From Talaromyces rugulosus (taxonomy: Eukaryota > Ascomycota > Eurotiomycetes > Eurotiales > Trichocomaceae): a stretch of DNA of 64,000 nt. How positions within the stretch are numbered: position 1 is the stretch's first letter; each line of letters opens with the position of its first letter. The notes under the pieces are model-generated. The model did not search any database. It was not told the origin of the DNA and saw only the letters and a program-made list of their open reading frames with translations. Position numbers and translations under genes: made by a program. The stretch is taken from contig NC_049566.1 in the NCBI RefSeq assembly GCF_013368755.1, positions 62,001 to 126,000 of the forward strand, given 5' to 3'. This document shows positions 36,601-62,402 of the stretch, piece after piece.

Positions 36601-37449
36601 GAAAAGCACTACAATTAGAAAAATGAGAAAAATGAGAAAGTCAAGTTAATTGATATGTCAGATGGAATGAATCCTTGTCCTCTCATTCATTGGTTTGGTA
36701 TACTGATATTATGTGGACCTAATGCATTATCCCTGTAATAACCCAGTAATAGCCCAGAGACAACCCAGAGAACCCAGTCAAGGCCCAGTCAAACCCCAGT
36801 CAAACCCCAATTCCCACCCCAGTTTCCCCAAGCCTAGCCAAAAAAATTCATCCCGTCCTACTTTCAAAGTTGAAGCCTTCGACTTAAATGTAGATATCTA
36901 GGTATTCTGACAAGCGTCGGAATTATCAATAGAACGGTTTGATATTCTGACAACAGTAGAACATTTAAACAGTTCAATACATTCTAATATTCCCCGAAAT
37001 ATTTATTTGATTCATGTAGAAATGTATAATGTGTGAATATATGTTTAACATATATAACTACATCGGTACGACGATAGATGTGCATTTTCCCACCACACCG
37101 TAGATACGGCCTTTCCATGTAGAACGAGGCATTGTAAAAGATAAGCAACAGTGAATTCGATATGCCCTTTTCATATTTAAGAAATTCCTTAAAGATTTCA
37201 TTGATTTCCTGGTAGAAAGTGTTCTATTTCAGTGTAAACATCAAAACGGGAAAAATGACGGCGTGTAATTTAAATAATTATACCATAATTTATGCCGGAA
37301 CTGGGTCGAAATGGGTTATTTCTGGGTTTTCTGGGGCCCCAGTGACTGGGCCTGGGTTGGGCCTGGGTTATGAAGCTTCGACCCAGACCCAGACCGGGTT
37401 GGGTTTTGGGTCGTGACCTTCGACCCAAAATGGGTTATGCGGAAGTCTA
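33636..37449 (-). mobile_element. hAT transposon, copy 2 (3,814 bp, inverted)
   Basis: Reverse-complement twin of copy 1, same length. It is flanked by a perfect 8-bp target duplication GGTGTAAT at 33,628-33,635 and 37,450-37,457, which fixes the element ends as TAGTCTTCCGCA...TGCGGAAGTCTA. Confidence 0.95.
33920..36533 (-). CDS. hAT family transposase, copy 2 (834 aa)
   Basis: Exons 36,533-36,006, 35,948-34,505 and 34,452-33,920, the mirror of copy 1 (position = 60,066 minus copy-1 position). The frame translations are identical to copy 1, with BED finger, DDE region and C-terminal dimerisation motif all intact. Both copies lack the C-to-T stops that fill the surrounding repeats, so insertion is recent relative to the decay of its neighbours, or RIP no longer works in this lineage. 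Confidence 0.9.
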
Positions 37450-37457
37450 GGTGTAAT

Positions 37458-38247
37458 ATAAAGACTGTTTTGTCTTTATTACTTTTTGTACTCTATATAT
37501 CTCTATTATTATGTCTTCTATAATTTTTTATGATTTATCTCTTGTGTTGGGCAATATTGTGAGTGATAAGGTCCTTGTGCTAGTGATATAGATCTTGGCA
37601 CTACAAGCGCTAGTTGATGTATTCTAGGAGGACCTTGACTTGTTACTGGTATCTTGGTGTAGCCTTGATATGATTAGGACAGAGCTTATGAATCTTGGTA
37701 TTAATATGAGTAAGGTAACTAAGTTGATCGACAAGTTGAATGAGAGGATCGATGAGGTGGTGGCTAACTATGTTGATGCCAAGATTGTTGTTGAGGAGAG
37801 TATCCAGCTGCTCCGTGTCTAGATCCAGAGCGTTCATGTTAATATGGAGAGCTCTGTTGACTATGTTAATATGCAGATCAAATTGTTGCCGCTCGCCGCT
37901 GACTTTATTAACATGGATGTGCAGTACTTCTCCTATGATGAGAATGCACAGGATGCTAGTGCCTATCATAATGTAAAATCAATAGACAGTCTATTGATTT
38001 AATTTTACTAACAAATGTTAGCACTATACTAGATAAAGTATAATTAATTAATTTATTTATTTAATTAATTCTCTACATCTTTATTTTTATAAAGATAGCA
38101 GTTCAAATTTTAATTAGTTATAATTAATAATTCTATATATTATTTATATAAATTTTATTATATTTAAATAATTAGTTTCATTATTATAAGTTATTAAAAA
38201 TTATTAAGATTATTTTTTAATATGGTTAGGATTTAGGTATATTATAT
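37458..38247. other. AT-rich region with a decayed coiled-coil frame
   Basis: Plus-strand frame 37,640-37,822, and its continuation past a TAG to about 37,975, reads as helical sequence (ELMNLGINMSKVTKLIDKLN). It looks like a broken coding segment, perhaps of a transposon. The family is not recognised. Confidence 0.35.
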
Positions 38248-39884
38248 TGTGAGGCCGTGAGACCTTCGGGACGTACCAGATGCCGCACCTCGCTACACTA
38301 GCCTTATAGAAAGTTGCTAAACCACCAATAAAATAGTATATATATTCTGATCTTTGTATAGAGGTTATTAAAGATTAGTAATTAGTTTAACTATCTAGTA
38401 AACTATAGTTTTACTATTAAATCTAACTTTTATATATTCTTTATATAATATTTTTATATTTTAATTATTTTTTATCTTCAGGAAGAAAGCTAGTAAGTGT
38501 TAGAATTATAGTTATTACTAGAAGTATCTCTATTTCTATTAATATTATTAAATATTCTATATTGGTAATAGAAATTCAACCTAGTATATTAGAAATACTA
38601 GATAAATATAGTAATAGAAAAAAACCAATAATAGAACTAGAAAAGAATCATTTTATTAGTAAAGACCTAAATTTAAAGATAGTATAGCTATTTTTAGAAT
38701 AAAAACTAAAAGATATATTAATAAAAGAACTTAAAACTATAAAAATCTAATTAGACTAAGAGTTTTATATTATAAAGCTAAAATAGTAGATCCTATAAAT
38801 CTAAATATAGCTATATAATATATTAATATATAAAAATTAAGATATTAGAACTTCCAACAGCAGTATTTATAAAAAAAAAGATCTTAAATTAATATAATTC
38901 CTATAGAAAAACACTTTTTAAGATTTAAAATAAAAGATTTTTATAATAGAAAATCTTTAATTAAATTTAAAACATTTATAGAATATATAAAATTATAATT
39001 TAGTAGATATTTAAAATAATATAGTTAATATCTATATTATAAAGTTAGTAAAGCTTTAAATAATCTAAGTTTTAAGTAATTTCTTAACTTTAATATATAT
39101 TACAAAAAGAAGGAATTTGTTAGGGTCCTAGCCCCTGGGATACTCAGACTTCGCTCTCATAGAATAACCGCACCTGGTCCGCATCTGATCTGCTATATGT
39201 CAGAAGATTCGATTAACTATAGCCAATCGATAGGCCTACGGACGCTACTTACCTAAGCAAGGCTATTGTGGGTACTTATACGGGTAGTTATGGAAAGATT
39301 GATGCAATGGAGTCATGTGATTATATAGATAACATAGCTAATAGAGCTGTTGTTAGACTAAGGATATATTGGATATGTTTCAATAAATATAGCCAACAGA
39401 GCAACTACTATAGAGATGGATATGTTCGCTATGTTTAGGATTTACTATATAAAGACACTCATTTACCAATATATATTTAGTTTAATCGTGTTTTATTCTT
39501 ATACCAAATTGGATCTATACTTTATCCAGCTTATCAACAAGTTACTCTTAAATATCCTCTTATTTACAAGAGATATTCCCCTTCCGACCCTAGTTATCTA
39601 CGTCTCTATCTCATTCGGCAGAATACTACCAACGAACACCCATTCTGGTAAAGAACGGTTGATACGTTTTGACAATAAAAATATTATATAAAAAATAGAT
39701 AAGAGTTAAATTTAATAGTAAAGCTATAATTCACTAGATAATTAAATTAATTATTAATCTTCAACAATCTCTATACAAAGGTTAGAATATATATACCATT
39801 TTATTAGTGGCTTAGCAATCCTCTATAAAGCTAGTATAGCAAGGTACGGCATCTGGTGCGTCCCAAAGGTCTCACGGCCTCACA
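38248..39884. mobile_element. element relic bounded by about 210-bp inverted repeats
   Basis: TGTGAGGCCGTGAGACCTTC begins at 38,248 (plus) and a matching TGTGAGGCCGTGAGACCTTT begins at 39,884 (minus). The similarity extends about 210 bp inward on both sides. The interior is very AT-rich with broken frames and contains at 39,118 another terminus, TGTTAGGGTCCTAGCCCCTG, matching the minus-strand one at 28,736. These may be two solo LTRs in opposite orientation or a foldback element. Confidence 0.6.
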
Positions 39885-39886
39885 CA

Positions 39887-40229
39887 AACCATTACTAAAA
39901 GCAAAAGTATACCACTTAAAGATAACCCTTTAATAAAACTGGGATTTTGATAGTTTTAGAAGGTTGTGAGATTACTATAGCAGTGTTAATAGCTTAGAAA
40001 GCTTTACAATTGTCTAATCTAGAAGTAGCTTTGAAGACATGTAGGCGCGTGCTGCGGACCTATTCCAATTGTAACTGATTAGTTATATTTGCACGTACTG
40101 TCTGAACAATTTAGTATAGAAATTATATAGTAAATATGATAAACAGTGGCGTTTTGGTCAATGTAAGTCGATTTTACCGGTAGGGTGGCCCGGCAGGCTT
40201 ATGTGGCCCGGGAGGGTTATAAGATACGT
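39887..40229 (+). mobile_element. 3' relic of a pogo-like transposon
   Basis: Collinear with the last about 340 bp of the pogo-like element at 51,476-53,350: the GAAGCAAAA block, the zinc-knuckle block (CCTATTCCAATTGTAACTG), the post-stop block ATAGAAATTATATAGTAA, and an end resembling its terminal repeat (GGTTATAAGATACGT followed by TA). Many C-to-T/G-to-A differences. It marks the border between the AT-rich island and the RiPP locus. Confidence 0.75.
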
Positions 40230-40470: not shown

Positions 40471-41228
40471 TTAATCAGCTCTATATAGATCAGGCATTTC
40501 ATGATACCCTGTACCAGGAAACAGACCACTCGCCCTGACACTGTGTCCTATGATTGCCTGATCATACGGACGGGCGTTTCCCTCTTCCACCACACGCCAT
40601 AATGAAGCAGGATCGCGGCATTGATGTACAATATGCCCAACCCCATCTATGATTTTAATATTCTGTCCCTGCTCGTTCACAGCGGTCTTTGGTGGTTCAA
40701 GAGTATCATCCGCAGCACAGAGGATTGCCTTGATTCTCAGATTTAGTAAAGTCCGATTGAGCTCTGTCTGCAAAGCTTGGCCGGGCATACCTGAGCGAGA
40801 TAATCGAAGCAATGTGCCCATTGCACACGAGCCATGCTGGAATTATGTTCTGTGTGGACAGGAGAGCCGCCAGGGAAAATAATTTCGCGTAAGACCACCA
40901 AGCAATGAAGCTGGTGAAACATTGAAACGCCATAGTCGCCTACTTTCTCTGTGTCGTCGGACATCCTGACCCTCAGCAACCCACCATTCTGTGGGAGCAG
41001 CGATGATCTGAAGGTGTTGGTTGTTTTGGTTCCTTCTTCATCTACCTTTTCAAGCAACTTGATGGGTCGAAACGTTCGTTGTGTTTGCTGTGTCTCGCAC
41101 GACGACACCTTTGAGCATATCTGGCGTTGGATGTGGCTGAAACTTCCATCCCACGAGTAAAGCACAACAGCTACGGTAAATAACAAGGCTAAACTCACAA
41201 TAGGTAATAAGTAAGGCCGGGGGAGCAT
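40471..41228 (-). CDS. UstYa/DUF3328 family protein 1, 231 aa (RiPP oxidative cyclase type)
   Basis: Exon 1 41,228-40,791, 62-bp intron 40,729-40,790 (GTATGC...TCAAG), exon 2 40,728-40,471, phase 0. The chosen start MLPRPYLLPIVSLALLF places a transmembrane anchor at residues 7-25. Family signatures: YGVSMFHQLHCLVVLRE (first HxxHC), QWAHCFDYL plus AILCAADDTLEP (second motif and Cys-Ala-Asp-Thr block), and VHQCRDPASLW near the C-terminus. UstYa proteins of ustiloxin, asperipin and phomopsin pathways install ether or C-C cross-links in ribosomal peptides at the secretory membrane. In the second motif the first His is replaced by Gln (QWAHC), which may affect metal binding. It is transcribed away from the precursor gene. 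Confidence 0.85.
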
Positions 41229-41710
41229 TTTGATATGTACAAGAGCTGGTATTCGTTCTGGTGGGAAAAAGGTTAGCCCAGGGGATTTCAGAATGTGATA
41301 TGGGAAAGTTATACAACCAAACAATTCTACCTCCAGAGCCAGTACAGATCTATCTAGCATGCTGGCTCGGATTTCGCGGCAAATCTAAATTCATCCCATT
41401 TGCTCATAATTTCACTAGTTCCCGTGATAGAAACGTTATATTTATTTGAATGCATAAAGTAGGTAACTGCATATATACATATGCATGTTGGTGAGAGAAA
41501 AAATATACGAGCGAGTCAACTACAAAGCATAATCAACCATGTAAATAACCGTAATCTTCGTTTAAATTGGACAATTCTTGAGCTCCAATTACATGTTCAA
41601 AAACACTTTCCCCTCAATTAATTTCTCTCCTTCTAAAAAGGGCACACGATCCCCGCACCAGGCTGCAAGCCTCATGCGGGAAAGTATTGACGTAGTGTCT
41701 GCGCCGCATT
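41229..41710. other. intergenic between the two UstYa genes
   Basis: Holds the 5' leader and promoter of UstYa protein 1 and the 3' end of UstYa gene 2. No other gene seen. Confidence 0.5.
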
Positions 41711-42701
41711 TTAACCAATCTCTCCACTGTCGGAGCCGTTGTCCGGGTGTGAATCGAACCAACCAAAGAGTTCTTTGAAACGGTGCGACATGATCTTCGC
41801 CTCGTACTGTGGTGGCTTGCGGATTGCGGCGAATAGATCCACGTCGACGGAGTTGTCCTCCTGCCACTTCAGTATAGCGTCGAAATCGCGACATTTGTGG
41901 TTGACACTAAAGTCCGGAAAGGCATTGAGCTGCGCGTCAGCCCAGTAGTGCGTATAGATGTCAACATTCGCATTGCACATCAGATTCTGGAGAAGCAGAT
42001 AGATGCAGTGGGACACATGAGTTCGATGCATATCGGAGGGGGGGGTGCCGGGGGGCCACTTTTTCCCATAATAATGATCAAAGTTGGCTTCTCGTCGCAG
42101 CCAGTCTAGACAGTGAATCTGGTGGAACATGTCAATACGGCCAATATACGCATCAGAGCCGAATCCAAAGCTCTCTGGCCACTTGGCTGCTACCGATGGG
42201 TCGCGGCCAAGCTGGATCACGTCCGAGCGGCTGATTACAATCGGTTTGATATTGGCTAGGCGGTTCCAGGCTTCGTCAACTTCCGGGCTGGGAGGTCGAC
42301 GATAGATTGGCGATGGATCTGGCTCGAGTAGTGTTGCATTCATTTTCTTTGTTACCAACGGAATGTCAATCCGATCGAATATTGGAGCTATTATGGTTAG
42401 GGAAGCTTTCATCGAGGGGGGACCGAACGGCTCACATACAGTACTCAGAGGTCATCCTTAACAAGTCATTGAGGTCATCATTATTGCGTCGTGTCAGAAT
42501 CACGGTGACGAAAAGCAAATATAGTGAAATACAAAAGATGAGTCCATTGAGCCATAGCAACAGTTTCTCGCGTTTCATAGGAAGTCCCTTGTTCCCCGGT
42601 GATTCCTCAATTTCATAATTCAGGTTAGAAGAGTCTGTGGCATCATGTTCAGATACCTCCGCATCGCTCGAATCAACGGCCTCATACTTGATGGGATACA
42701 T
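41711..42701 (-). CDS. UstYa/DUF3328 family protein 2, 312 aa
   Basis: Exon 1 42,701-42,440 with a true ATG, 52-bp intron 42,388-42,439 (GTATGT...AATAG), exon 2 42,387-41,711; the split codon keeps frame. An N-terminal cytosolic tail starting MYPIKYEAVDSSD is followed by a transmembrane segment (about residues 47-70, LLLWLNGLIFCISLYLLF). Lumenal signatures: PPSPEVDEAWNRL, RIDMFHQIHCLDWLRRE (HxxHC), THVSHCIYLLLQNLMC (second HxxHC, complete) and FSVNHKCRDFDAILKW. All metal-binding motifs are intact, so this is the stronger candidate for the macrocyclising enzyme. It is divergent to the precursor gene, sharing a 582-bp intergenic region. Confidence 0.9.
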
Positions 42702-43283
42702 CGTATTGAAAATCCGTCACAAGCCTGAAAAATGATTGACCACAGTGTGACTGAGTAAAGAACGGGGCAAGATATCATCCCTTTTTCTACCTTTTCAGCA
42801 CGGAGCGTTGTTGCTAGTGGCATATGACTTCTTAATTGTGAATCTTCTGATAAGGAGATGGTCCTACAGCCGAAATATGATGCTATTGCATCATGCATGC
42901 ATACATCCTATTGTGGTTTCATGCTCGATGCGGCGCAGCCACTTGCTACGTGTCCAGCTGAACCGCACTTAAAGATAGAACTACAGCTCACTTGTGCATA
43001 ATCTCCTTGTTTCTAGACAAGGGTGGTGAGGGGTAGACAGTAGTGGGAAGCAGATGGTGAAATGCGACGCGAGGAAAAACAAATGGGAAAGCATCCAATC
43101 GGAAAAAGAAGAAAAGAAGAGATATCGATGTTGATATTGATATGGGTTTTCTCAACCGTATTAGTAAAAATTATTTAAGCCTGAAAATTTCTCCCCTTTT
43201 CACTTCAATTTACCAAATTTAAGTTCTTTGAAACCCACAATCTTCCTCAATAAACTTTCGAGACTTACATCACTGCCTCAAAC
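42702..43283. promoter_or_regulatory. divergent promoter region between UstYa gene 2 and the precursor gene
   Basis: 582 bp with no gene. A TATA-like AAAAATTATTTAAG lies at about 43,166-43,179, roughly 105 bp before the precursor ATG, followed by a pyrimidine-rich leader. A shared promoter would co-express the precursor and its modifying enzyme (inference). Confidence 0.45.
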
Positions 43284-43612
43284 ATGAAGCTGTCACTTTC
43301 CCTGCACGTGGCATATGCTCTCATCATGAGTGAGATTGTAGTTACTGCACCTCTTCCCGACGGTACGTAATAGAAAAGTTTCATTCGGAAATTGTGTCTT
43401 TTCTTTTTTGTCCAATACTAATCCCTCTGTGAGATATAGCGACGTCTCTTAGCAAAAGTGACCCAGCTTCTGGCGAGGGAGACGCAACAGCTCTCTACGC
43501 CTACATTGCTGAAGATTCCGAACTCGATGGTAAGAAAGCAAAAAGAGACGGAGACGCAACGGCTCTCTATGCGTATATTGTCGAGGATAGTGATGTAGAG
43601 GATCAGAAATAA
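43284..43612 (+). CDS. RiPP precursor peptide (ustiloxin/dikaritin type), 83 aa
   Basis: Exon 1 43,284-43,362, 77-bp intron 43,363-43,439 with GTACGT donor, TACTAAT branch site and ATATAG acceptor, exon 2 43,440-43,612. Too short and split for simple frame calling. Residues 1-22 (MKLSLSLHVAYALIM...) form a weak signal peptide. After a short spacer come two near-identical units, each GDATALYAYI followed by an acidic EDS segment. They are separated by GKKAKR, a Kex2-type dibasic site; the second unit ends the protein. This architecture (secretory leader, repeated cores, Kex2 sites, UstYa genes alongside) is that of UstA, AprA and PhomA precursors. The likely core is the Tyr-Ala-Tyr-Ile stretch, compare Tyr-Ala-Ile-Gly of ustiloxin B. 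The core boundaries and product are inferred. Confidence 0.85.
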
Positions 43613-43929
43613 TCTTCGAGAAATCCTTCAGCTTAGGGTCAACGGCCCTTAAGATCGTGTCAATTTACATTTATTACCAGGCTATAGCCTGGTTCGAATT
43701 GGGACGTATTTTGTACTGTTACGGATGGTTACCCCTATGAAACGAATGTCACTCATTTATCTTTGTCCTATTCAATAATAGGACTATCATGATTGTGAAT
43801 AATGAACCATTATAAAGCAGCTGGAAACCTGGTGTACCAAGTAAACAATGACAATTTCGCTACAATTTCGTACACTGTTTGGCTCAGAAATTGTTTCGTT
43901 GGAAAAAATGTGTGAGTTTTACCCTGTTC

Positions 43930-44682
43930 ATGGATAACTCAAAGCTCACAAACAGCTTCAAAGCGCCATACCATGATTCTGGCCCCTCTTCACCCTCAGT
44001 ATCGTCATCTAGATCGGACTATAGCTAGGTACCGCTAGTTGAGGAAAGCAATTTGTTGAATGAAAAAGGAGACAACGATTTAGATCTCCTATAACATTTT
44101 CAGCTAAGTACTGTGAGAGATATCTGGTCATGGTTTGTGGAAACACCTAAGGCGCTCATGGTTGCTACATGTTTCGCGACTTCCATTCTTCTTCTTATCA
44201 CTATCACCAGTTTCACCGGTCACAAACCGGGGTCCTATGTTCGCCTGTACACGGTATCCCAGCAGAATGCTTTCCAGCCGGAACACCTTGACTCATTCGG
44301 TGGCCCTATGGAGCTTGGGGGTACTTACCGCTGCGGCAGCTATCCCAGCGAAGCGAAATCTTTGGGATGCGTATTCGACCTAATGAATTTTGGTTGGACG
44401 GCGCCCGAGTGCTATTACGAGGGAGTATCTGTCCCGGGGATAGCTGAAGGCCCTTACAAATTTTACTTGGATAAAAATCTCACTGTGGAAATTCCACAAG
44501 ACGTCGCCCTTTCAGGCCGTGTGGTTGATGTGTACACGACGCGCCACTACCATGGAGAGCATTGCAAATGGTCGCAGGCCGTGGTGGCGCTGGCGAAGGA
44601 AGATGGCAATATTTTGATTCCACAAGTGATTGCCCAGCAGAACCATACGATACACTGTCAGCATTACATCGAGGAATCCTAA
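43930..44682 (+). pseudogene. RiPP-locus membrane protein paralogue 1 (HxxHC family); broken, or with an extra intron
   Basis: From ATG 43,930 one frame runs to 44,682 but meets TAG at 44,026 and TAA at 44,092. Residues on both sides read as coding, and both stops could be Gln codons changed by C-to-T. Alternatively a 105-bp phase-0 intron (GTATCG at 43,999 to TTTTCAG at 44,103) removes both stops, so the gene may be functional. The product has a polar N-terminus, a transmembrane segment (ALMVATCFATSILLLITI), then CGSYPSEAKSLGCVFDLMNF, GWTAPECYYE and HTIHCQHY. This family of small type II membrane proteins is uncharacterised. It shares the HxxHC element with UstYa proteins but lacks the rest of DUF3328. 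The end at TAA 44,680 may also be premature. Confidence 0.55.
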
Positions 44683-44883
44683 GGGAAGCCTATGGAGACG
44701 GTCGACACTTGGACGCGTGTTGTCTATAATTCTTGTATCAAATTATCCGAAGCTGATCTCCTAATTGTTGTTTAAAGAGGCAAATTTTTTGATTTTAAAC
44801 TAGGAAAAATAAGAAGTAACTGAAGTGATAGATATTTCAATTTAATAAGTCATCTATGATTAAAGTGGGAAAAACGAAATCGT

Positions 44884-45659
44884 TCAAAGGGAAGGCTCGC
44901 GGATGAGGAAATAATGAACCATAGGCTCAGTTCCACCGTACTGGGAATAGTCGGTAGACACGGTTTCTACCAGCTTGAACCCTAGGTTAAGATAGAGCTT
45001 CAAGGCAGCCGGCTCCGACATGACATAGGTCTTGATTGCGTGCTGATCTGCGACCTTAAGCCCGCTCTGCACGAGCATACTACCAATGCCCCGCCGCCAG
45101 AATACCGGGTTTGTGGTCAAGTAATCCAGGCCTAGTCAAGTATATGTTATCAGTTACAAAATATAACCAGCCATTCACATTCATGGGTCGAGTTTAGCAT
45201 ACTCAGAAACGGACCATCTCGCCTGATTCGCGCATCGACCGCTTCCAGCGGTGCGCTGCGATAACTCATCATTGATCCACTCTTCATGCCAGTCGGACGA
45301 CCATTTTTAGTGCACGCTTGGTATTGCTTCTCGTATGCTGCGCGTTCCGCTGCAGTCACCTCAGCTACCTGGGCTTCCAGCCAGACATCGTTGTTTTTTG
45401 CCAGAATGGGAGGTAGAATCCATCGCGCGTACCCAACGACTTGACCGGTTTCGCGATTGATGACTTTCTGGTGCCGTTTGATATCTCGCCCAGTTACCAA
45501 GTTCCAGGGAACCCGGTCAGTAGCTTTAGCTGTGATATTTTCTGAGGACGGGTCCTCCCACAGATGAGCCCAGTGGGGATCCGTGAGACGGGCGCCCATC
45601 ATGGTCGCAGCAAGGCCCCGAGCGTCAGCTGGGAAACAAGGCTGAACTACAAATGACAT
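44884..45659 (-). CDS. GNAT-family N-acetyltransferase, 234 aa
   Basis: Exon 1 45,659-45,203 (true ATG), 71-bp intron 45,132-45,202 (GTATGC...GACTAG), exon 2 45,131-44,884, frame kept. Exon 1 encodes the N-terminal beta-alpha part (GYARWILPPIL). Exon 2 carries the acetyl-CoA motif A (FWRRGIGSMLV, with RRGIG) and the LYLNLGFKLVE motif near the C-terminus, usual for single-domain fungal GNATs. No signal peptide, so cytosolic. It lies inside the RiPP locus and might N-acetylate a peptide or detoxify it, but such GNATs are common in fungi and the link is positional only. Confidence 0.8.
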
Positions 45660-46086
45660 TATGGAGAGTGACTGAAGGAGGATGGAGTTTCGCGCTGAGA
45701 GTGGCGTCGGTCTCTCGACTAGAGGAGAGGGGGATTGGCTGGTGAAAGAGAGAGCACCTGGTGTCCGATAGGTTTCGGGGCTAGGGTGCAGCGGTCAGAT
45801 TCGGCGACCACGGCGGAGGGGCATGCTTCGGCGAATCTCGACTACTAGTCTTATAGATTAAAAAGATCATTTTCATGATACATTCCGCCTCTCTGTTTGA
45901 TAGAATTGACGACTGTAAACATGGCTGCCGAAATACGACCATATACCAAGAGGCTGTATAGTTGTACTGGCTACCTGCCCCTTACTGCGGATTCCGAACA
46001 AAAACTGATCAAACAACAACTGTAGGGTTTTCCCGGCGCAGCTTATCTCGACTGGAGGAGGGCACAGATGAGGCTGAAAGCCATTC
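45660..46086. other. intergenic
   Basis: Upstream region of the GNAT gene and of paralogue 2. A short plus-strand frame from ATG 45,921 has no recognised motif and may or may not be a first exon of paralogue 2. Confidence 0.35.
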
Positions 46087-46640
46087 GTGAGCAAGCGATC
46101 TAGCATCGACGATTCGAGCGACGAGGAACATCTCAGCCTGCCAGTCACTCGCAAACGCTCATATTGTCGCTCCGGAGCTTCAGTCGTGGGTATTGTAAGT
46201 GTTGTGTTACTGGAAATGGTTGCTTTTGCCGTCTTAGTGACCGACAGCCGTAGTGGCAAAGTGCCTGATTCCCGTCCACCCCAGGCGCAAGGCGGATCCG
46301 TCGTCACAGCACACTGCGGTACCACGCCGGAAGGAGCCAAAGCTCGTGGCTGCTTCTGGGATATCATGAGCTTTGGTTGGATGCACCCTTCATGTTTTGA
46401 TCGTGAGGAGTCCGCTCGTTGGGAGGCTGAATATGGGCCCTGGGAATGGTACTCAGAGCGGCCGGGCAACGAGACGGATTTGGTGCCGCTCACGGCTGAA
46501 GAGTTGCCATATTCACCTGTTGTGTGGAAAACACAGGGATACCATGTTCAGCATTGTCTCTTAAGATGATCCACATGGCTGCTATGATAGAGGCCCCGAT
46601 GTCTAATAAGGGGATTGAACTTGGCCATACAGACCATTAC
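46087..46640 (+). pseudogene. RiPP-locus membrane protein paralogue 2 (HxxHC family), frameshifted
   Basis: The open frame 46,087-46,569 begins at a GTG (no in-frame ATG; stops lie just upstream), so the start codon may be lost or in an unresolved exon. A transmembrane segment (ASVVGIVSVVLLEMVAFAVL) precedes HCGTTPEGAKARGCFWDIMS, GWMHPSCFDREES and YHVQHC. Directly after HxxHC the frame stops at 46,567. The expected C-terminal part continues in another frame (MIHMAAMIEAP ... GHTDHY, where this family usually has HTxHC). A single-base deletion near 46,560 would explain this. Probably non-functional. Confidence 0.6.
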
Positions 46641-47229
46641 ACAAAACTTTATCAGCAATCCAGAGCTAATAGATTACACGGAAGCCAATACACATATTCA
46701 TCTGCTCTTTGTTAAATATATATCAATTGATCTTTGATATAAATCTATAAAAAATATATAACACATGTGTCCTCCTCTAACGCGGTATCTGGACCCCATT
46801 TATAGCAGATAGATGAAAATACAATATTAACACTTCACCATATTTTATTCCAATTCTGCAATTGCGCAACAAAATACAATTATAGAACTCAACTATTCTC
46901 TCCCCCAAGTGAAACAAACGGTCATCAGATATTGATTCTATGGCCAGGATTCCAGTTTCGGACTTTCCCAGATTCGGACCCGAAAGCCATCGGACTTTTA
47001 GCTGCCCCCGTATTTTCTTACAAAAGGGACTGAATGAGAAAATAAGGGAAATTATTCCTCACCAAAACTGCTGTATGATATTGTTCGACTACAGCGATTG
47101 ACACCACAGGTGAACACAACATTCCCTAGAAGTCACTTTTGTGTCGCCCAAGGCGTTCTCCACAGCCCCATACATCCATCTATTTTTTTATACTCCAAAA
47201 ACTATTCCATTTTAAACGACATTCCTGCC
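46641..47229. other. intergenic
   Basis: AT-rich spacer between paralogues 2 and 3. No gene seen. Confidence 0.45.
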
Positions 47230-47650
47230 ATGGCCTATCTAGGGAAATCAAAATACTCTCTTCTCAACTCCTCTAACACCAACCTGGAGTCAGCACCAAT
47301 ACCAGCTCACAAATCATCTCTCTCACTCGTTTCATTGGTCCTACAAACAACAACATTCATAATCTCACTCACTCTCTTAGTCCTATTTCTTATTGTCCCA
47401 AGAACTTCATCCTCTGCCATATCTTCTTCAAACCCTTTGCTGCCCGTGGGCATAAGCTAGGTAAATCCTAGTATAGCACATTAGCTTCAACCCTATGGAA
47501 ACGATGCAGTGACAGCGCGTGCCAATGGCTGTATCTTTGCCCTTCTAACGCTGGCTTGGTTGGCATCTGAAAGAACCCGATGGGAACGATCAATCCACCA
47601 GAAACCACCATCATTTAAATACTCTGTGTTTGTGTATAATCTGTGGAGTT
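47230..47650 (+). pseudogene. RiPP-locus membrane protein paralogue 3, decayed
   Basis: ATG 47,230 starts MAYLGKSKYSLLNSS, followed by a transmembrane segment (SLVLQTTTFIISLTLLVLFL). In the same frame come TAG at 47,458 and TAG at 47,482, then YGNDAVTARANGCIFALLTL and AW. This is the family's CGxxxxEAxxxGCxFDxxxxxW motif with the first Cys changed to Tyr. Both stops are of the kind produced by C-to-T change of CAG. The downstream half, including HxxHC, is not recognisable. Confidence 0.55.
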
Positions 47651-47702
47651 GGATTCATATTTCACCCAACCTACATTTAAGGATATTATATCAACTCCCA
47701 AA

Positions 47703-49079
47703 ATGCTGCTTCTCATGATCACTGTGTTGCTTTCGGTCGCGTGTAGCAACGCTGTTGTGATCGTTAGTGACCCAAGCGACTATGTCGATCTATCGTTGGA
47801 TACTATCGATAATTCACTTCTCACGGACTGGAACATAACAGCCACTTTGTACCAGATCATCGCTGTCAACGGACCATACTATTTCAGCGAAGCGAATCGA
47901 AAGATCGAGCACCGGACCTTTGCTGCGACAGATAATGATACCAGTGTTGTCGTTGTAACTGACAATTCAATTATGAATATATCCCACTCGCTTATTTTGA
48001 AACATGGATATGCGTCTAATATATATCAATCGAGCTTTTACGGTGTGAATGCAGCTGTCAATGTTGCTAATGGGTCCTTCGCGACTTTCAACAATATCAA
48101 TATTACCACCCATAATGGTTCTGCAAATTTATATGCATACGGCAGTGGAACATACGCTATTGTTGAAGACTCTGATTTGTATAGCTCCGGTCCTATTTCT
48201 CATGGCCTTTATGCGGGTGGTAACGGAACCGTGACTGGCCGCAACATCCGACATTATTCAGGGGGCTACCGTTCCTCTGCATTTTCTGGAGACACCCCAG
48301 CTGGGTATGTCTATATATACAGCTCGGTAGCCCATACTGCAGGTATTGGCAGTGCAATATTTTATGCACTTGGCGAAATTCATGCTGAGAACGTTGTCGG
48401 TCATGCTGAACAAGCACCGGCCCTTTTTATGGACGGTGTACAAACTGCTGAATTGCAGAAGGTTGACTTGACCGCCGGTTTACTTGCTGGTCTACTACTC
48501 TTCTCGTCCAGCGAGCGTGAGGCTGGTGCATATATCAACTTGACAGGCTCGAAGCTTACGGTATTGCCGGAAACTGCGCCAGGATTGTGGTTTGGAAATA
48601 TCATTGCAACAGCGGAACTAGCCAACGTGGAAATTGAAACCGCATCAGGAATTCTGGTCGTTGCAAACTACTCTCAAATAACCCAAGACTTCAATTATTA
48701 TGCTGGATATCCTGATAACAACGATCTATTGCCCGCTGAAGTAGATATATACGTCTCTGAATCTTATCTAGATGGAGATCTGGTTGCATACAACGGAAGC
48801 AGCATTTCCTGGACTCTATCTCAATATTCTTCCTGGACTGGCAGTGTGAAATTCGGATACGGTGATGCGAGCTTCGGAGTATATCTCGATAAAACGAGCA
48901 AGTGGATATTGACCCATGACGCCTTTCTCACGAATTTTACGAACGATGACACGGGATTATCAAATATCATAAGCAATGGGCATAGCATCTACTATGACAC
49001 CACCTCGACAACAAACACATGGTTAAAAAACCAGACAATCCAGCTTAACGGTGGTGGAAAGGTGACCCCTTCAACGTGA
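47703..49079 (+). CDS. secreted right-handed beta-helix-like protein, 458 aa
   Basis: The frame is open from 47,643, but the ATG at 47,703 is preferred because it starts a signal peptide (MLLLMITVLLSVACSNA). The mature protein has no Cys after the leader. It consists of short repeating beta-strand units rich in Asn, Ser, Gly and Val, with many N-glycosylation sites (NIT, NGS, NFT), the pattern of a pectate-lyase-like parallel beta-helix. No catalytic signature of a known polysaccharide lyase or hydrolase was recognised. It lies directly downstream of paralogue 3 in the same orientation. A role in cell-wall surface or in the RiPP locus is open. Confidence 0.7.
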   Translation: MLLLMITVLLSVACSNAVVIVSDPSDYVDLSLDTIDNSLLTDWNITATLYQIIAVNGPYYFSEANRKIEHRTFAATDNDTSVVVVTDNSIMNISHSLILKHGYASNIYQSSFYGVNAAVNVANGSFATFNNINITTHNGSANLYAYGSGTYAIVEDSDLYSSGPISHGLYAGGNGTVTGRNIRHYSGGYRSSAFSGDTPAGYVYIYSSVAHTAGIGSAIFYALGEIHAENVVGHAEQAPALFMDGVQTAELQKVDLTAGLLAGLLLFSSSEREAGAYINLTGSKLTVLPETAPGLWFGNIIATAELANVEIETASGILVVANYSQITQDFNYYAGYPDNNDLLPAEVDIYVSESYLDGDLVAYNGSSISWTLSQYSSWTGSVKFGYGDASFGVYLDKTSKWILTHDAFLTNFTNDDTGLSNIISNGHSIYYDTTSTTNTWLKNQTIQLNGGGKVTPST

Positions 49080-50368
49080 ATGATCCATGCTTACAGACTT
49101 CGAGGGAATTCTAGGCCGATAGTAGTTGGGAAGGCAGAAAAAGGACGGTAGCAATTATGGCCACAATGTTCAATTAGCGCATTTTGGGGCCGCATATAAT
49201 CTGTACTACTACCATGGCTGTGTCGTTGGAAGTTTCAAGGTGATTGAAGAGTATTTTTACTTTTCGGCCACAAGTATTTTTGAGCGATGGGAATTTCACT
49301 GGATCTTTGGAGAACGTTGCGTACTTTGCATGGAACATTTCTCTTTGGTAGCTTTACCAATCGTATTTTTATGTTTTAGTCGGGTATCATTTAGCAAATG
49401 TGGAGCTCTCAAATCAAGAAAAAACCAAGATGTCAACACCGAAAGTTGTAAAAACGTGGGGATCTTCGTTGTCTCGTCCCTTTTTCGAACGCAGCTATTT
49501 ATGGGGGTCATGTCGATCAGCGTCGATCTGAGACTCCAATCACCGTCAGCATCAGAGGATGAAATCATCGATGCCCCACGGCCTAACAGTGTCATGTGTT
49601 GCGCACCCTGGGAACCGAGTATGTACGGAGCATAGTTTGATACGAGGTATATAAGTATCTATCTCTACTTCGTACTCGTGCACGGAGGATGTCCGATGGA
49701 GGGCTATTCGGGCCAATTTGGGCCGAATGATATCATTAATGCCTCAAGCTTGGAAAATTAAAAATTTTCCACGTGGATGGCAGGCCCTGTGGATAACACG
49801 GTGGCTACAGCGTACTACTTGAACAGACATCAGTACTCGCACATGCAACATGCAATTTTGCATACAGCACTCTTCTGAAGCCTGCCATACGTAGTTTGCA
49901 AGTTCTAATTTTGTAGTATAACCCCGTAAGGGGTTCAAACACCCCTTGGCCCGCAGTTGCCCCCTGCTCTCTTCCTTGGGGCGGTTTTGTGGAGATCAGG
50001 GCGCCAACTCCATCGGATTACTCCCTAGCCGTGAGTCTATCAACTTCATCGTCATTTATCGTCCTTTAGAAGCAGAAGCCGAATGTCAATCATCCTACGT
50101 GGGGCGAGATACGTCCAACCTTCCAAGGAGTAATGATATCATTACCCATTAATAATTTGCGTTCAAAGACTTGCCCCAATTTCATCTGTACAAACTTTGC
50201 GATCTTTGAAACAAGATGCTTAATAAGTATCAAGAAGTTATGCCCCACGCTTGATTATTTATACCGTGCCTTCATCCCTCTCTCGGTTTTTCCTGCATCA
50301 TTAAAATCCATTTAGGCAAGCATACTCTTTGTCGCAACTTAAGCCCACTTCTGCCCTCGCTATCAAAT
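49080..50368. other. intergenic
   Basis: The plus-strand frame 49,126-49,635 has no recognised motif. A TTATTTATACC sequence at about 50,254-50,264 is a plausible TATA site for the following gene. Confidence 0.4.
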
Positions 50369-50737
50369 ATGAAGACCGCTCTTCTTGTTCTCCTGGCTGC
50401 GGCCTTTACCAACGCCCAGTTCTCTGGACTCATGTTTTTCAGAGATTCAGGCGACTGTCCCCAACAAACGGCATCCGAGTCCCAAACTTCTTGGACATAC
50501 GATGCTAGTGAAGGAAATCTATGTTTCTCGAACCCATATGAAAGCGACGATCTAGATGTTGCCTTCAGTGGGGAATTGATCGGCACAAACGCAGTAGCAC
50601 CTAAAAAGCTCGGTGGGTGCCCGACCAGCAGTTGCGACAAAGACTGCACAACAGTGGATGTCGAAGCATCGGGTAATGGTGCTTTAGTGGAGTGCGCGCA
50701 ATTCAGTGGTGCTAGCTACCTTTACCTTGGACAGTAG
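50369..50737 (+). CDS. small secreted cysteine protein, 122 aa (effector-like)
   Basis: Single exon from ATG 50,369. Signal peptide MKTALLVLLAAAFTNA (1-16), then a 106-residue mature protein with six Cys (CPQQ, LCFS, GGC, SSC, KDC, VEC) that could form three disulphides, acidic overall. No family recognised. Size, leader and even Cys number are typical of fungal extracellular effectors or antimicrobial proteins; this is a class description, not a function. Confidence 0.7.
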   Translation: MKTALLVLLAAAFTNAQFSGLMFFRDSGDCPQQTASESQTSWTYDASEGNLCFSNPYESDDLDVAFSGELIGTNAVAPKKLGGCPTSSCDKDCTTVDVEASGNGALVECAQFSGASYLYLGQ

Positions 50738-51475: not shown

Positions 51476-53350
51476 ACGTATTTTATAAGCACCCCGGGAC
51501 ACATAAGCGTCCCGGGACACCCTCTCAATTTCCTCCCACTTTCAACCAACCATACATTTGAAAATCGCATAACCACACCAATATGCCTCAGAACGCTGCA
51601 AAAACCCCTTCAAACAATGAAGGAAGACTTCTGCTTGCTATAAACGCGTTAAAAAAAGGTCAAATAACCAGTGTGCGCGAAGCAGCACGTGTTTACTGTG
51701 TACCAAAGTCGATGCTTCACGCGCGAATGCAGGATCGCGCGCACCACTCATATAAGCGCCCCAAAAACACCAAATTGTCAGAAACTGAGGAAATTACACT
51801 GCGCGATTGGATTCTCTCAATGGATAAGCGTGGCTGCCCTGTCAGGCCCTCAATGGTAGAGCAAATGGCCAATTGCTTGCTTGCAAAACGCGATTCCATT
51901 ACCTCACCACCAACCATTGGTAAGTGCTGGGTAAGCAATTATTTGAAGCGCCAGCAAAACCTACAGACCCGTTACATTTGCAAATATAATTATAAGCGCG
52001 CTTTATATGAAGATCCAACAATTATTAGCGGCTTTTTTGATAATCTTAAGCGCGTTTTTACCGAGTACGGGATCGCTGAGGAAGATATTTGGAATTTTAA
52101 CGAGACTGGGTTCACTATAGACATCATTTCTACTGTAAAAGTTGTATGCAGCTCTGATCGCAAAGGGAAACCTCATCTACTACAGCCTAGAAATCGAGAA
52201 TGGGTCACAGCTATGGAATATATAAGTACAAGAGGGATTGCTGTGCCTTCACTTATTATATTGAAATCAGTCAATAAACTTCTTAATTGATATAATCTAC
52301 CTGGTTTACCACCTAATTAGGCAATTACTAAATCACCAAATAGTTGGACATCTGACAAATTGAGCCTTAAATAGCTTCAAAAAATTTTTAACCCTTAGAC
52401 AAAACCTTATACAGTTGGCCGGTACCGTCTTCTGATTCTTAATAGACATAGTAGTCATCTTACACCTTTATTCGATCAGCACTGTGCTACAAATAACATT
52501 ATTACCATATATATGCCGCCACATTCGTCACACCTACTTCAACCGCTTGATGTGGGTGTTTTTGCGGTTCTAAAGCGCTTATATAGGCACGCGGTTAAAA
52601 ACCGGATGCGCTGCGGTGTCAACCATATTGATAAAGACGATTTTCTCACAATGTATGCGGACATTCGGGATAAAGCCTATACCATACAAAATATTAAGAG
52701 CGGCTTTTTATCGACCAGTATCTCGCCATTTGACCGAGAACGTGTGCTATCTAAGCTTGACATTCAATTGCGGACACCTACCCCCCCAAGTACGAGTCAT
52801 TCTTCTGCAAATTAGTCCCCAAAAACACCAAATAATATAAAAAACCTGATTCGTCAAACAAACACCATAAATCGGCTTATAAATCAACATCTTACCCATC
52901 CAAGTTCGCCTACTAAACGCGCGTTAGACCAGTTAATAAAAGGTTGCTCGTTAGCCATAAATTCCACCACTATATTAGCGCAGGAAAATCAGGAATTAAG
53001 AGCAGCGAACCATCACCAGAAGCAAAAAAAGACAACCCATAGTAGGCCTATTGACCGTCAAGGAATTTTGACAGTTTCTGAAGGTCGCGAGATAGCTACA
53101 GCAGCGTTGACAGCCCAGGAAGCTTTACAATTGCCTAATCCGGAAGTGGCTTCGGGGGCACGCAGGCACGCGCCACGGACCTGTTCTAATTGTAAACAAA
53201 TCGGGCATATTCGCACATACTGCCCGAACAATTCTATATAGAAATTATATAGTAATTCGGTTTATTCGTTACGTTATGGTCATTTTCTATGATTTCTTAG
53301 CGCGGGTGTCCCGGGACGCTTATGTGTCCCGGGGTGCTTATAAAATACGT
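51476..53350 (+). mobile_element. pogo/Fot-like DNA transposon, 1,875 bp
   Basis: Perfect 47-bp terminal inverted repeats (ACGTATTTTATAAGCACCCC...), TA target duplication on both sides (51,474-51,475 and 53,351-53,352). Carries one transposase gene in the plus orientation. A relic of the same family lies at 39,887-40,229. Confidence 0.95.
51583..53239 (+). pseudogene. pogo-like transposase, inactivated
   Basis: ATG 51,583 opens 235 aa with an N-terminal helix-turn-helix (LKKGQITSVREAARVYCVP), a CENP-B-type second DNA-binding domain and the start of the DDE catalytic domain. The first catalytic Asp, expected in a NFDETGF motif, is Asn here (IWNFNETGF), and the second catalytic motif reads LNRHSSH where family members have LDGHSSH. 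Stops occur at 52,288 and several later sites. The rest of the catalytic domain continues (YMPPHSSHLLQPLDVGVF, 52,513 on), and the gene ends with a zinc knuckle TCSNCKQIGHIRTYC at about 53,188. Changes are mostly G-to-A/C-to-T. Not active itself, but its ends are intact. Confidence 0.85.
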
Positions 53351-54178: not shown

Positions 54179-56010
54179 ATGAACCATCTCTACGAGTCAG
54201 TCACAAGCTCAGAACCGCAGAATGACAAGGTTTTGGGGGAAGAGATCAAAAGACCGTTGAGAAAGGGAGAATTATTCTGTCTGGCGATCAGCATGGGAAG
54301 GTTCGATTCTGTTCCTCGTCTGGTCCGACTGTTGCTAACTAAGCTCCAGTCTACAAGTGACCTGGGTGACTATTATGGCGGAAGGCTCAGTAAGTGGGCT
54401 GCGTGATGGGTGATTAGATATGGGCCTCTTTAATCCTCTGTAGCCGTTTCTTCTCTCCCTCGGACTTGTACCGTCCCTTGTCTCCCTGGTCTGGCTTGCC
54501 GGCCCAGTATGCGGCACCCTCCTCCAACCATTCATCGGATACAAGAGTGATACGTGTACTCACCGATGGGGCCGTCGAAAGCCATATATAATATACGGAA
54601 CGCTGGTTGCAGTATTTTCTATCAATATGCTGGCGTGGACTAGCGAGACAATGCGACTGACTTGCTGCCTGCTGGGTGTCAATCCGTATAACCTAGTTTG
54701 ATAACCAAATCGCTAGCAATTTTCTGGGTCTGGGCATGAATATCTCGCTTCAGCCAGTTCAAGCAGGCCTCAGAGAACTCACTGTAGATCACTATCCAGA
54801 TAGGCAACAGGCTGAAGCTGGCACATTTACCAGCTGCATCATTCTCATTGGCAGTTTGATCGGTTACGGCGCTGGGTTCCCGAAAATTCCCATTCCAAGT
54901 GTGCACGGGTTGATCGAGAATATACAGTTCAAAGGCCTTTGTCTGATTGCCTTTCTAAGTCTGGGAAGTACTGTAGCAATTACTTGCTACTTTACGAGAG
55001 AGAGAAGCCTAGCAACAAGCCACTAACTCCAAAAGATGATTCACGCTTAGCAAGTGTTCCGGGAAGTTTACAAAACAGCAGCAGATCTTCCTCCAACAGT
55101 GAAGATGGTTTGTCTTGTCCAGTTCTTCTCTTGGCTAGCTTGGTTTCCTTTTTTGTTTTACGGCGCGACGTATGTTCTCTGTCTCAGTCGGGAGAATCCC
55201 GTAACTAATCTTCAAAACCACAGATACCTGAGCAAACTTTGTCGGTTGAGCTCATTCCTGATGTTGCGTTTTCTATTAACCATAAATCCACCATAGACAA
55301 GTCCAACATTCTCCTTATCAAAAATGGGGCCTCCTTCCAACCAGTTCTACAACGCACTGCATGAATAGTCCTTACGACATGGCACATTAGCATTGGTGCT
55401 ATTCTCATGCGTCGCATTGCTAGCCAACCTTGCTCTTCCGTACCTAACTCATGACCGCCGTGCCGGTAGAATGCGGGACGTGACTCGTATGGAGATTGCA
55501 GGGAGTCTTATCAAGAGGCACATGACCCTCCCTCGTGTGTAGATGGTTTCTCACATTCTGACTTCAGTATGTCTCTTTAGATTGACTGTGAGAGAGTCCT
55601 TCATATCATCTATGGTATTTGTCGCTATTCTCGGGATTTCTTGGGGTCTCACGCAATTGGTACCTTTCGCAATCATCGGAGCGGGGATTTCTGAAGAGTC
55701 TATCCCGAGCCGCTTGTATCTTGATCAATCCACGACTGTACCGAAACCTATCTCTTCTTCTGACTCGCTTCCCACGAGCGATGAACTTGACATGGAGAAG
55801 CAACAGTTCTCATCGGAGCATTCCCTCAGTCCAGCACGGTCAATGGCTGCCACCGCAATGGGGGTCCATAACATTGCAATCTCCTTACCGCAGATATGCT
55901 CCTCCATTATGAGCAGTCTTATATTTACCATTTCCAGCTGACTTAATCTCGGACCAACAGCGACGCTGGCATGGGTATTGCGATGGGGGGTTGTGGGAGC
56001 TGCTTATCTA
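54179..56010 (+). pseudogene. sucrose-type (SUT/GPH-like) MFS transporter, broken
   Basis: ATG 54,179 begins MNHLYESVTSSEPQNDK. With two short introns (about 54,299-54,349 and 54,390-54,443) the first part reads clean: [63 protein letters not shown], typical of fungal sucrose/alpha-glucoside carriers of the SUT class. Later blocks, NISLQPVQAGLRELTVD, VKMVCLVQFFSWLAWFPF, and the last helices with LTQLVPFAIIGAGISEE (about 55,650), lie in different frames. At least two shifts (near 54,733 and between 54,990 and 55,055) and stops around 55,295 are not explained by introns. Most likely a pseudogene; it could be rechecked with RNA data. Confidence 0.7.
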
Positions 56011-56189
56011 GGTCGGGGTATCTAGTTGAGTGGAAGTTGAAACCGTGTCTAGAACTAGCTTCAAGGCTTCAACTTTCTACTTGATAAAAATAAATCGGCA
56101 TAGTTTGACTTGTAATCTCTTGCATATTATACGAGCCAACAGCCTCACCAGAAAAGCACTGCTGTTTTGGCTAGTCAGCTTAACGTATA

Positions 56190-56450
56190 TGATGATAGCT
56201 GCTCAAGCCGCTTTCCACCACCCCACCCCTTTCCAAGGCCCGGTGCATCAATCGCAACCCATACAAACAATGATAGATGTGATACTTGCGCGTTGTGCAA
56301 CTAAATTCGCCCAGAGGCCGTTCTGACAACACTTCGTAGCTTTTAATTGGGAGCTGTGCATCCTCATCGTAGTAAAATGTCTCCAAGGCGTCCTCAAAGA
56401 ATTCCGCGCTCAGGTCTGCATTATAGCATTATCTTCCGTGGTCGTGGTCT
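56190..56450 (-). pseudogene. fragment of the RiPP-locus HxxHC membrane-protein family
   Basis: The minus strand encodes CYNADLSAEFFEDALETFYY, then RKYHIYHCLYGLRLMHRALE and SGLSSYHH. This is the C-terminal half of the family represented at 43.9-47.6 kb (C-x-D-x-E after the Trp motif, then HxxHC with R-x-x-HRA). The 5' half with the transmembrane segment and CGxxxxEA motif is missing, and a stop lies just upstream. A fourth, isolated copy. Confidence 0.6.
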
Positions 56451-61222: not shown

Positions 61223-62402
61223 TTACTGACAACCTCCAAGTCTAACACTTTCAGCATAAAGTTCGTAGGTGTCCGCATTCATGGCAGCTTGATCTGCGCT
61301 CAGAGCCTCGCAGTCATCGTGCCCATAGGCATAATCCGATGTTCCAAACAGGTGAGCTAAGGGCTAAGATTAGCAAATGGAAGTTTCAATTGATTGTATC
61401 CACGGGAAATGGCCTTACTCATCTCGTGGAGAATTGCCCCAGCCTTATCATAATCACTAGCCTCACAATCGCCTGCGAATTCCCCCAAATCCCAATATCC
61501 CCCATTAGGGCATGGGATAATAACATTATCAGGTGTAATAGTGACAGCTAAGGCACTATCTCCGTTATCTCCACAAGCACCATATGTGTCGGAACATGAT
61601 ATGGTGAAGCCAGTGGATTGAGCATTGATTACTTGGCCGTAGATTGAATCGGTCGTTGATGATTGGCCAGCATCCTTGAACCAATTGATCCAGTAGTCAT
61701 CCTCGTTTGCCTCCGCCTGTTGTGCTGCCGATGCCATGGCTATGGCGTCATTCACGGAGGTCTGCAGATCTGTCTGTTGGTCGGCGGAACAATTTTCAAT
61801 TCCCAAGTCTCGTCTTTGAATGGACGCGGCGGGAGAAGTTTTTGAGAAGTGTTCAGATGCGGCTTTCATCTGGTTAGGAACAATGGCTACCTTCTGGGAT
61901 ACGACACCTGGACAGAAAGACATGTCCTTGAGATTAGATGGTATGGTCTCGCCCATGACATACTTCAAGTGCTGAAGTGCTGTAACCTTGGCGTTGGATA
62001 CGCCGTCGAGTTTGTGAGATACGGCAGCATTGACAATGGTGCTAACTGCCTGGCCGGAGCCGAGACGCTGGAACATGGAGGATGAAGGGTTGCTTTGCTT
62101 ATAGTCGACGTAAGCCCCACTGAAATCCAGTTCTTTATCATCTAATTACGCGTATGCGTCAGTAGATTCAATGTGGTCAATCAAGGCCAAAACCAACCTT
62201 CACCCTGAACCAGCAACTTTCTCACAGGTCGCGTATCTAGAACAGTATTTCCTTTGAAGAACGTGACTGTTTTGTCTGCTTGGTTGGTGATCGTAACATT
62301 GACATTATGGTCATCAACGTTGGATATCTCCACAGACAATGGACAAGTATTGGCTGCGACGAATGCGCCCCACGAAACGAGAAGAATTGACCTCAGTGCC
62401 AT
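61223..62402 (-). CDS. deuterolysin-type zinc metalloprotease (M35), 353 aa
   Basis: Exon 1 62,402-62,198, intron 56 bp, exon 2 62,141-61,419, intron 62 bp (61,357-61,418, GTAAGG...CCTTAG), exon 3 61,356-61,223. Signal peptide MALRSILLVSWGAFVAA. The propeptide ends near SIQRRDLG, a dibasic maturation site. The mature domain starts with ENCSADQQTDLQTSVNDAI and has the conserved Cys pattern. The zinc motif is HEMTH (307-311): HEM and one base come from exon 2, the rest from exon 3. It is followed by GTSDYAYGHDDC, whose Asp317 is the third aspzincin ligand, and NADTYELYAE. Secreted neutral protease with preference for basic nuclear proteins in known members. Length is normal for the family and the gene looks intact. 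Confidence 0.9.

Follow-up and report, generated by a model that had tools for sequence, protein, structure and literature searches.

Dikaritins are ribosomally synthesised and post-translationally modified peptides (RiPPs) whose precursors are repeat proteins processed by Kex2 and whose cyclisation is due to UstYa homologues; by 2022 five dikaritins were on record (PMC10512285). Their original definition comprised five genes, with a tyrosinase and a methyltransferase, peptidase or transporter among its criteria, whereas a revised one takes the DUF3328/UstYa protein as the class-defining enzyme (PMC12048977), and asperipin-2a has been traced to a four-gene dikaritin cluster without a tyrosinase (PMC6514808). 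The strain in which asperipin-2a was first obtained produced it exclusively on solid maize medium (PMC10512285). On the wider scale of Kex2-processed repeat proteins (KEPs), DUF3328 neighbours accompany 1758 of the 7878 proteins surveyed (PMC7329392). The DUF3328 protein CctR is a binuclear copper enzyme in which the conserved motif makes the two-copper site, and mutants with conserved His or Cys residues changed to Ala are inactive (PMC12435403). Here a candidate locus of this type is analysed in Talaromyces rugulosus, within a 64,000-nucleotide stretch of contig NC_049566.1 (hereafter the window; C6:62001-126000 in a genome of 35.76 Mb and 6 contigs). Its precursor gene and two adjacent UstYa-family genes are real and quite probably constitute a minimal dikaritin-type RiPP locus, a further member of the known class with a predicted cross-linked peptide.

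A two-repeat precursor with a Kex2 site had been proposed in an earlier note drawn from the sequence alone, and its exons, repeats and KR site are all borne out. The spliced gene contains a GT..AG intron, and a database search returned an exact match to the independently annotated TRUGW13939_10378 of T. rugulosus W13939 together with five homologues. The protein follows the dikaritin pattern, with a putative endoplasmic reticulum (ER) leader suggested by the hydropathy of its hydrophobic N-terminus, one Kex2-type KR between the units and two repeated cores, encoded by two direct repeats of 63 nt each at a spacing of 72 nt and a DNA identity of 73%. Between the two units the nine codons for DATALYAYI differ by four silent and no amino-acid changes, as against two silent and seven amino-acid changes in the remaining twelve codons; the Fisher p of 0.02 for this contrast is descriptive only, since the block was selected after inspection.

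The same block recurs in other fungi. Of 22 candidates in the precursor protein search six proteins fell at E <= 10, all of them at E <= 1e-9, namely the window's own, those of Aspergillus sclerotioniger (four repeats) and A. carbonarius (three repeats), and three metagenome proteins; by handle, four repeats are counted in the homologue P0004 and three in P0006. LYAYI is retained in 15 of the 16 repeat units of these six proteins, the sole exception being HAHI in the metagenome protein P0002, where both Tyr residues are replaced by His; Kex2-repeat types with His pairs have been noted close to DUF3328 genes (PMC7329392). The conserved block exceeds the YAYI core, reading ATALYAYI (S for T in one unit) with DS behind it, so that the exact core boundaries are not settled. 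The core letters were met neither in off-topic literature matches nor in the main text of PMC7329392, the supplements and primary surveys being outside reach, so that novelty in print is not established; among the titles listed by the topic literature searches, none concerned a T. rugulosus RiPP.

The precursor appears to travel with its enzyme. Of the five precursor homologues other than the window's own protein, three share an identically sized contig with a homologue of UstYa-A, the nearer of the two UstYa genes, at 1,103,785 (A. sclerotioniger), 330,741 (A. carbonarius) and 18,672 bases (JGI, Joint Genome Institute), location on the same contig being inferred from equal size and equal species. 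The 18.7-kb contig implies close linkage of the two homologues. As to the remaining two, one lies on a contig of just 1,018 bases, and the other (11,591 bases) has no partner among the 120 of 193 UstYa-A matches listed. Judged from these comparisons the pair of precursor and UstYa-A looks conserved. The assignment to the ustiloxin/dikaritin type thus stands, since homologues keep the pair on equal-sized contigs and the repeat core is conserved; a UstYa/DUF3328 gene beside the precursor is also what the revised definition prescribes. Both UstYa genes are divergent from the precursor as had been claimed, at 0.6 kb (UstYa-A) and 2 kb (UstYa-B), and UstYa-A is full length and aligns ungapped with a T. 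atroroseus protein at 78.5% identity. Coordinates of all features are collected in the table.

Table. Features of the candidate dikaritin-type locus and its neighbours (window positions)
Feature	Position	Strand	Details
RiPP precursor gene (candidate)	43284..43612	+	exons 43284-43362 + 43440-43612; 83 aa; identical to TRUGW13939_10378
Repeat unit 1	43475..43537	+	includes ATALYAYI
KR, presumed Kex2 site	43541..43546	+	separates the two units
Repeat unit 2	43547..43609	+	includes ATALYAYI
UstYa-A	41711..42701	-	exons 42701-42440 + 42387-41711; 312 aa; HQIHC + HVSHC; Pfam UstYa 1e-64
UstYa-B	40471..41228	-	two-exon model 41228-40791 + 40728-40471; 231 aa; HQLHC, then QWAHC; Pfam UstYa 4.8e-20
GNAT acetyltransferase	44884..45659	-	exons 45659-45203 + 45131-44884; 234 aa; Pfam Acetyltransf_1 4.5e-8
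HxxHC-2 copy 1, broken	43930..44775	+	C-terminus cut by in-frame stop; more in-frame stops upstream
HxxHC-2 copy 2, broken	46078..46569	+	single HxxHC, frame lost directly after
HxxHC-2 copy 3, remnant	47230..47715	+	no HxxHC; weak match, E 0.022
HxxHC-2 fragment	56183..56428	-	one HxxHC; E 1.4e-6; profile match

Several observations weigh against the proposed dikaritin-type locus. For the two Aspergillus scaffolds the pairing is read from equal contig size and not from gene distance. Close UstYa-A homologues (at least 66% identity over at least 86% of the query) occur in nine named species besides T. rugulosus, and a precursor accompanies two of these in the protein database, leaving seven species without one; short genes often go unannotated, which would be the likely reason for these seven, so that the count, which speaks to a refuting condition set by the earlier note, neither confirms nor refutes the pairing. 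The repeats number only two. In UstYa-B the motif QWAHC stands in place of the second HxxHC, one of four expected His residues being changed to Gln, and the exons of this gene are stop-free matches joined by a 62-nt intron that is the present analysis's own model. Among 30 Pfam-scanned window sequences, which cover part of the window's open reading frames (ORFs) and involved no family-wide search, no transporter, regulator or methyltransferase was recognised, and the nearest peptidase is an M35 match at 61360-62145, 18 kb away. Finally, the locus has broken genes around it, along with a Tc5-like transposase and an AT-rich block, and might therefore be in the course of being lost.

The substitution in UstYa-B, unremarked in the earlier note, deserves separate consideration. 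UstYa-A carries two HxxHC motifs and UstYa-B does not, and because a conserved His is replaced and alanine mutants of the conserved His and Cys in CctR are inactive, UstYa-B is unlikely to act as a standard oxidase. Two paralogous frames elsewhere in the genome (L018 and L029) have HxxHC ahead of the same CFDY, while a third (L024) lacks it, perhaps owing to an exon edge; motifs of these other UstYa genes were read frame by frame with introns ignored, so that absence of a motif there means little. A solved-structure search with UstYa gave only two matches, to viral cofactors at E near 0.7, taken as chance, and the UstYa profile found no relatives in viral and prokaryote contigs, which accords with the fungal nature of the family.

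The window is not the only place where this genome pairs a repeat precursor with UstYa. Genome-wide, 43 UstYa matches were merged into 25 loci by the analysis's own procedure, and a scan for Kex2 repeats covered 298,814 bases in 26 sequences (including the window and one extra flank), mostly around UstYa genes, with flanks of about 1.5 to 7 kb that reached to C5:3953442 in one case and were confined to C6:4886421-4889714 in another. The scan yielded nine frames; five real loci remained once frames duplicated by overlap, mirror images on the opposite strand and a single serine-rich frame had been dropped, whereas block-shuffled controls (n=5) averaged 0.2 per survey. Two additional sequences contained no further precursor. 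Precursors are thus present at five of the 25 UstYa loci (the window, L016, L020, L031 and L037/L003), making the window locus one of several alike in T. rugulosus. L020 (C1:2032000-2041900) combines a seven-unit Kex2-repeat precursor at 5999-6286 (minus strand) with a UstYa gene at about 4.1-5.1 kb (plus) and tyrosinase exons at C1:2032027-2032770, and so represents a more complete locus of the ustiloxin type. The precursors of L031 (6995-7513, plus) and L037 (7962-8561, minus) adjoin UstYa, with tyrosinase exons near L037 at C5:3945 kb. That of L016, at the C1:7216-kb locus of the HxxHC-2 family discussed below, was read by eye at 7429-7732 (plus); the scan row came from the opposite strand, and the true precursor has a single KR. 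Repeat units of the L031, L037 and L016 precursors are unrelated.

Next to the precursor, the GNAT gene reported in the earlier note is upheld as a spliced gene, intact in the present model. Its best match elsewhere in the genome (C2:1858491-1858967, 28% identity) has a UstYa match (C2:1859300) 0.3 kb away, and membership of the GNAT in the cluster is no more than plausible from these sequence relations, because its best genomic match adjoins UstYa and lichen Clan R2 clusters pair GNATs with UstY. At that second locus (C2:1854600-1864500) the GNAT match and the adjoining UstYa gene occupy about 3.75-4.46 kb (plus) and 4.6-5.4 kb (minus), and the scan found no convincing repeat precursor there, only a serine-rich frame. 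The absence of other ustiloxin enzymes agrees with what was searched: none of the 14 tyrosinase matches in the genome falls inside the window, where the original dikaritin definition would place one, and neither does any of the 106 listed P450 matches (92 of 312 candidates scored). This is consistent with a product simpler than ustiloxin, flavin monooxygenases having had no genome-wide search.

Taken together, these elements suggest a plausible route to the product. The precursor would enter the ER by way of its leader and be cleaved by Kex2 at KR in the Golgi, so that every released peptide would contain ALYAYI with acidic flanks on either side. UstYa-A, predicted to be a single-pass membrane protein with both HxxHC motifs in its luminal domain, would act as the oxidase; by comparison with the copper enzymes CctR and AprY, it would bind two coppers and link the side chain of a Tyr to a residue close by. 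From the spacing of the two Tyr, at positions i and i+2, an ether between them (minus 2 H) is predicted, perhaps accompanied by a further bond in which Ile takes part (minus 4 H). UstYa-B more likely serves as a partner, altered or without catalytic activity, than as another complete oxidase, and the GNAT might acetylate the amino end of the peptide.

A different composition of the locus is suggested by a second family with HxxHC motifs, termed here HxxHC-2. The earlier note had counted three tandem HxxHC membrane proteins in the window, a claim that does not survive: copies 1 and 2 are broken, copy 3 is a remnant without the motif, and all belong to a separate family outside Pfam. Homology to intact relatives of copy 1 in other fungi runs on beyond its early stop, as in the longer proteins of Penicillium nucicola (82%), Xylona heveae and others, and copy 1 has two further in-frame stops unless an intron is assumed. 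With every window copy broken, the HxxHC-2 genes were rejected as working parts here. The family has no Pfam model, and none of 11 members matches Pfam UstYa; its interpretation as a divergent UstYa was likewise rejected, the profile alignment (hhalign probability 4.8%, E 0.0084) being limited to 24 columns within the membrane segment. No match emerged from a solved-structure search, and no relatives from a comparison of the HxxHC-2 profile with viral contigs.

Even so, HxxHC-2 may be a second metal-site oxidase or a copper- or electron-delivery partner, the true unit then being precursor, UstYa and HxxHC-2 together, a proposal that is tentative and on balance rather unlikely. Three single-protein searches led to the same three loci in the genome, the window, C1:118318-118977 and C1:7215753-7216448, each beside UstYa. 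On C1 the distances to the UstYa matches are 1.7 and 0.7 kb, and both members are oriented away from those matches, while in the window the precursor sits between the two families; the C1:7216-kb locus has a repeat precursor as well. The chance of one such neighbour is about 0.4% (25 UstYa loci of about 5 kb in 35.76 Mb), a figure weakened because each of the three loci lies no more than about 120 kb from the end of a contig, a region in which members of both families might accumulate anyway. Eight of ten near-full-length relatives (P0128-P0137) and both C1 members have a hydrophobic segment followed by two HxxHC motifs, whereas P0131 and P0136 have neither motif. An accessory electron or Cu(I) donor has been postulated by the authors of the CctR study (PMC12435403). 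Against such a partnership stand the broken state of all window copies, the lack of convincing similarity to the UstYa profile and the contig sizes of the listed relatives, which match those of none of the 120 listed UstYa-A homologues. Moreover, the single-protein queries missed the 56.2-kb fragment, so that distant members elsewhere may be missed too, and the profile was applied to loci near UstYa, with the L015 member entered in shortened form. A broader version, in which HxxHC-2 is an unrecognised UstYa partner (copper/electron donor or unrelated metal-site oxidase) and the QxxHC-bearing UstYa-B forms the non-catalytic half of a UstYa-A/UstYa-B heterodimer, is considered unlikely.

Decay offers another explanation, that a formerly larger dikaritin cluster is now silent and that precursor and UstYa-A survive by chance. 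The broken HxxHC-2 copies, the substituted copper ligand of UstYa-B, the transposase (51562-52812) and the AT-rich block resembling the outcome of repeat-induced point mutation (RIP; 38001-40000) are all in keeping with it. This is nevertheless improbable in view of the intact precursor and UstYa-A, the latter's ungapped alignment with T. atroroseus, and the exclusively silent changes between the repeat cores, in a block picked post hoc. Neither is there a listed HxxHC-2 relative on contigs sized as the three precursor contigs (in a single-sequence search of limited reach), so that HxxHC-2 may not be needed. Least probable is a linear signalling peptide of the pheromone or hormone type, with the UstYa genes serving another nearby pathway. 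In its favour, about 78% of the 7878 Kex2-repeat proteins, mating factors included, lack a DUF3328 neighbour (PMC7329392). Against it, annotated mating factors and pheromones lack one with three exceptions (PMC7329392), precursor and UstYa-A homologues share equal-sized contigs in three other sources, and the conserved block contains two residues of Tyr, the amino acid that takes part in the cross-links of ustiloxin, phomopsin and asperipin.

Other features of the window were recorded alongside the candidate dikaritin-type locus. Secreted-looking proteins at 47703-49079 (no Pfam match; a second genomic copy was sought and none found) and 50369-50737 (small; no Pfam match) were set aside. The Tc5-like transposase region extends over 51562-53241, with HTH_Tnp_Tc5 and DDE_1 matches and a zinc knuckle below cut-off in separate frames, and the AT-rich block left of the UstYa genes has a GC content of 0.18 and 0.32 and a RIP-like composite index of 0.76 and 0.41. 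Inverted copies of a three-ORF set (206, 483 and 183 aa) at 23458-26146 and 33920-36608 have the look of a mobile element, the 483-aa ORF having no Pfam match. Remnants of a sugar-symporter-like transporter were read by eye at 54300-56030, where the two ORFs tested gave no Pfam match.

Within a class that has very few characterised products, the ALYAYI core common to Talaromyces and black Aspergilli would be an addition, encoded by a very small gene set. Its two Tyr residues, two positions apart, provide a clean test of partner choice by UstYa, and UstYa-B a test of the importance of a UstYa gene that lacks one ligand. HxxHC-2, if a true partner, would bear on how UstYa enzymes obtain electrons or copper.

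In comparison with described systems, the lichen Clan R2 RiPP clusters resemble the window in having a UstY homologue flanked by GNATs without the usual ustiloxin enzymes (PMC12048977), the GNATs being likened by type only, and differ in that no repeat precursor is recognised there. KEPs share the leader, KR site, tandem repeats and DUF3328 neighbour; the 2020 survey required at least three tandem repeats between Kex2 sites, a rule by which the two-repeat window precursor is passed over, unlike the A. sclerotioniger homologue with four (PMC7329392). Ustiloxin and phomopsin agree in precursor, Kex2 sites, UstYa-type proteins, and Tyr and Ile in the core, whereas the window has no tyrosinase match or listed P450 and two repeats instead of 16 or 8. 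Asperipin-2a of Aspergillus flavus has a different core and one UstYa gene where the window has two and a GNAT, and its transporter and reductase were not recognised in the window, no search having been aimed at them. What the two loci have in common is a repeat precursor with a UstYa-type oxidase, no tyrosinase, and a Tyr-containing core, which in asperipin is joined through Tyr ethers (PMC6514808).

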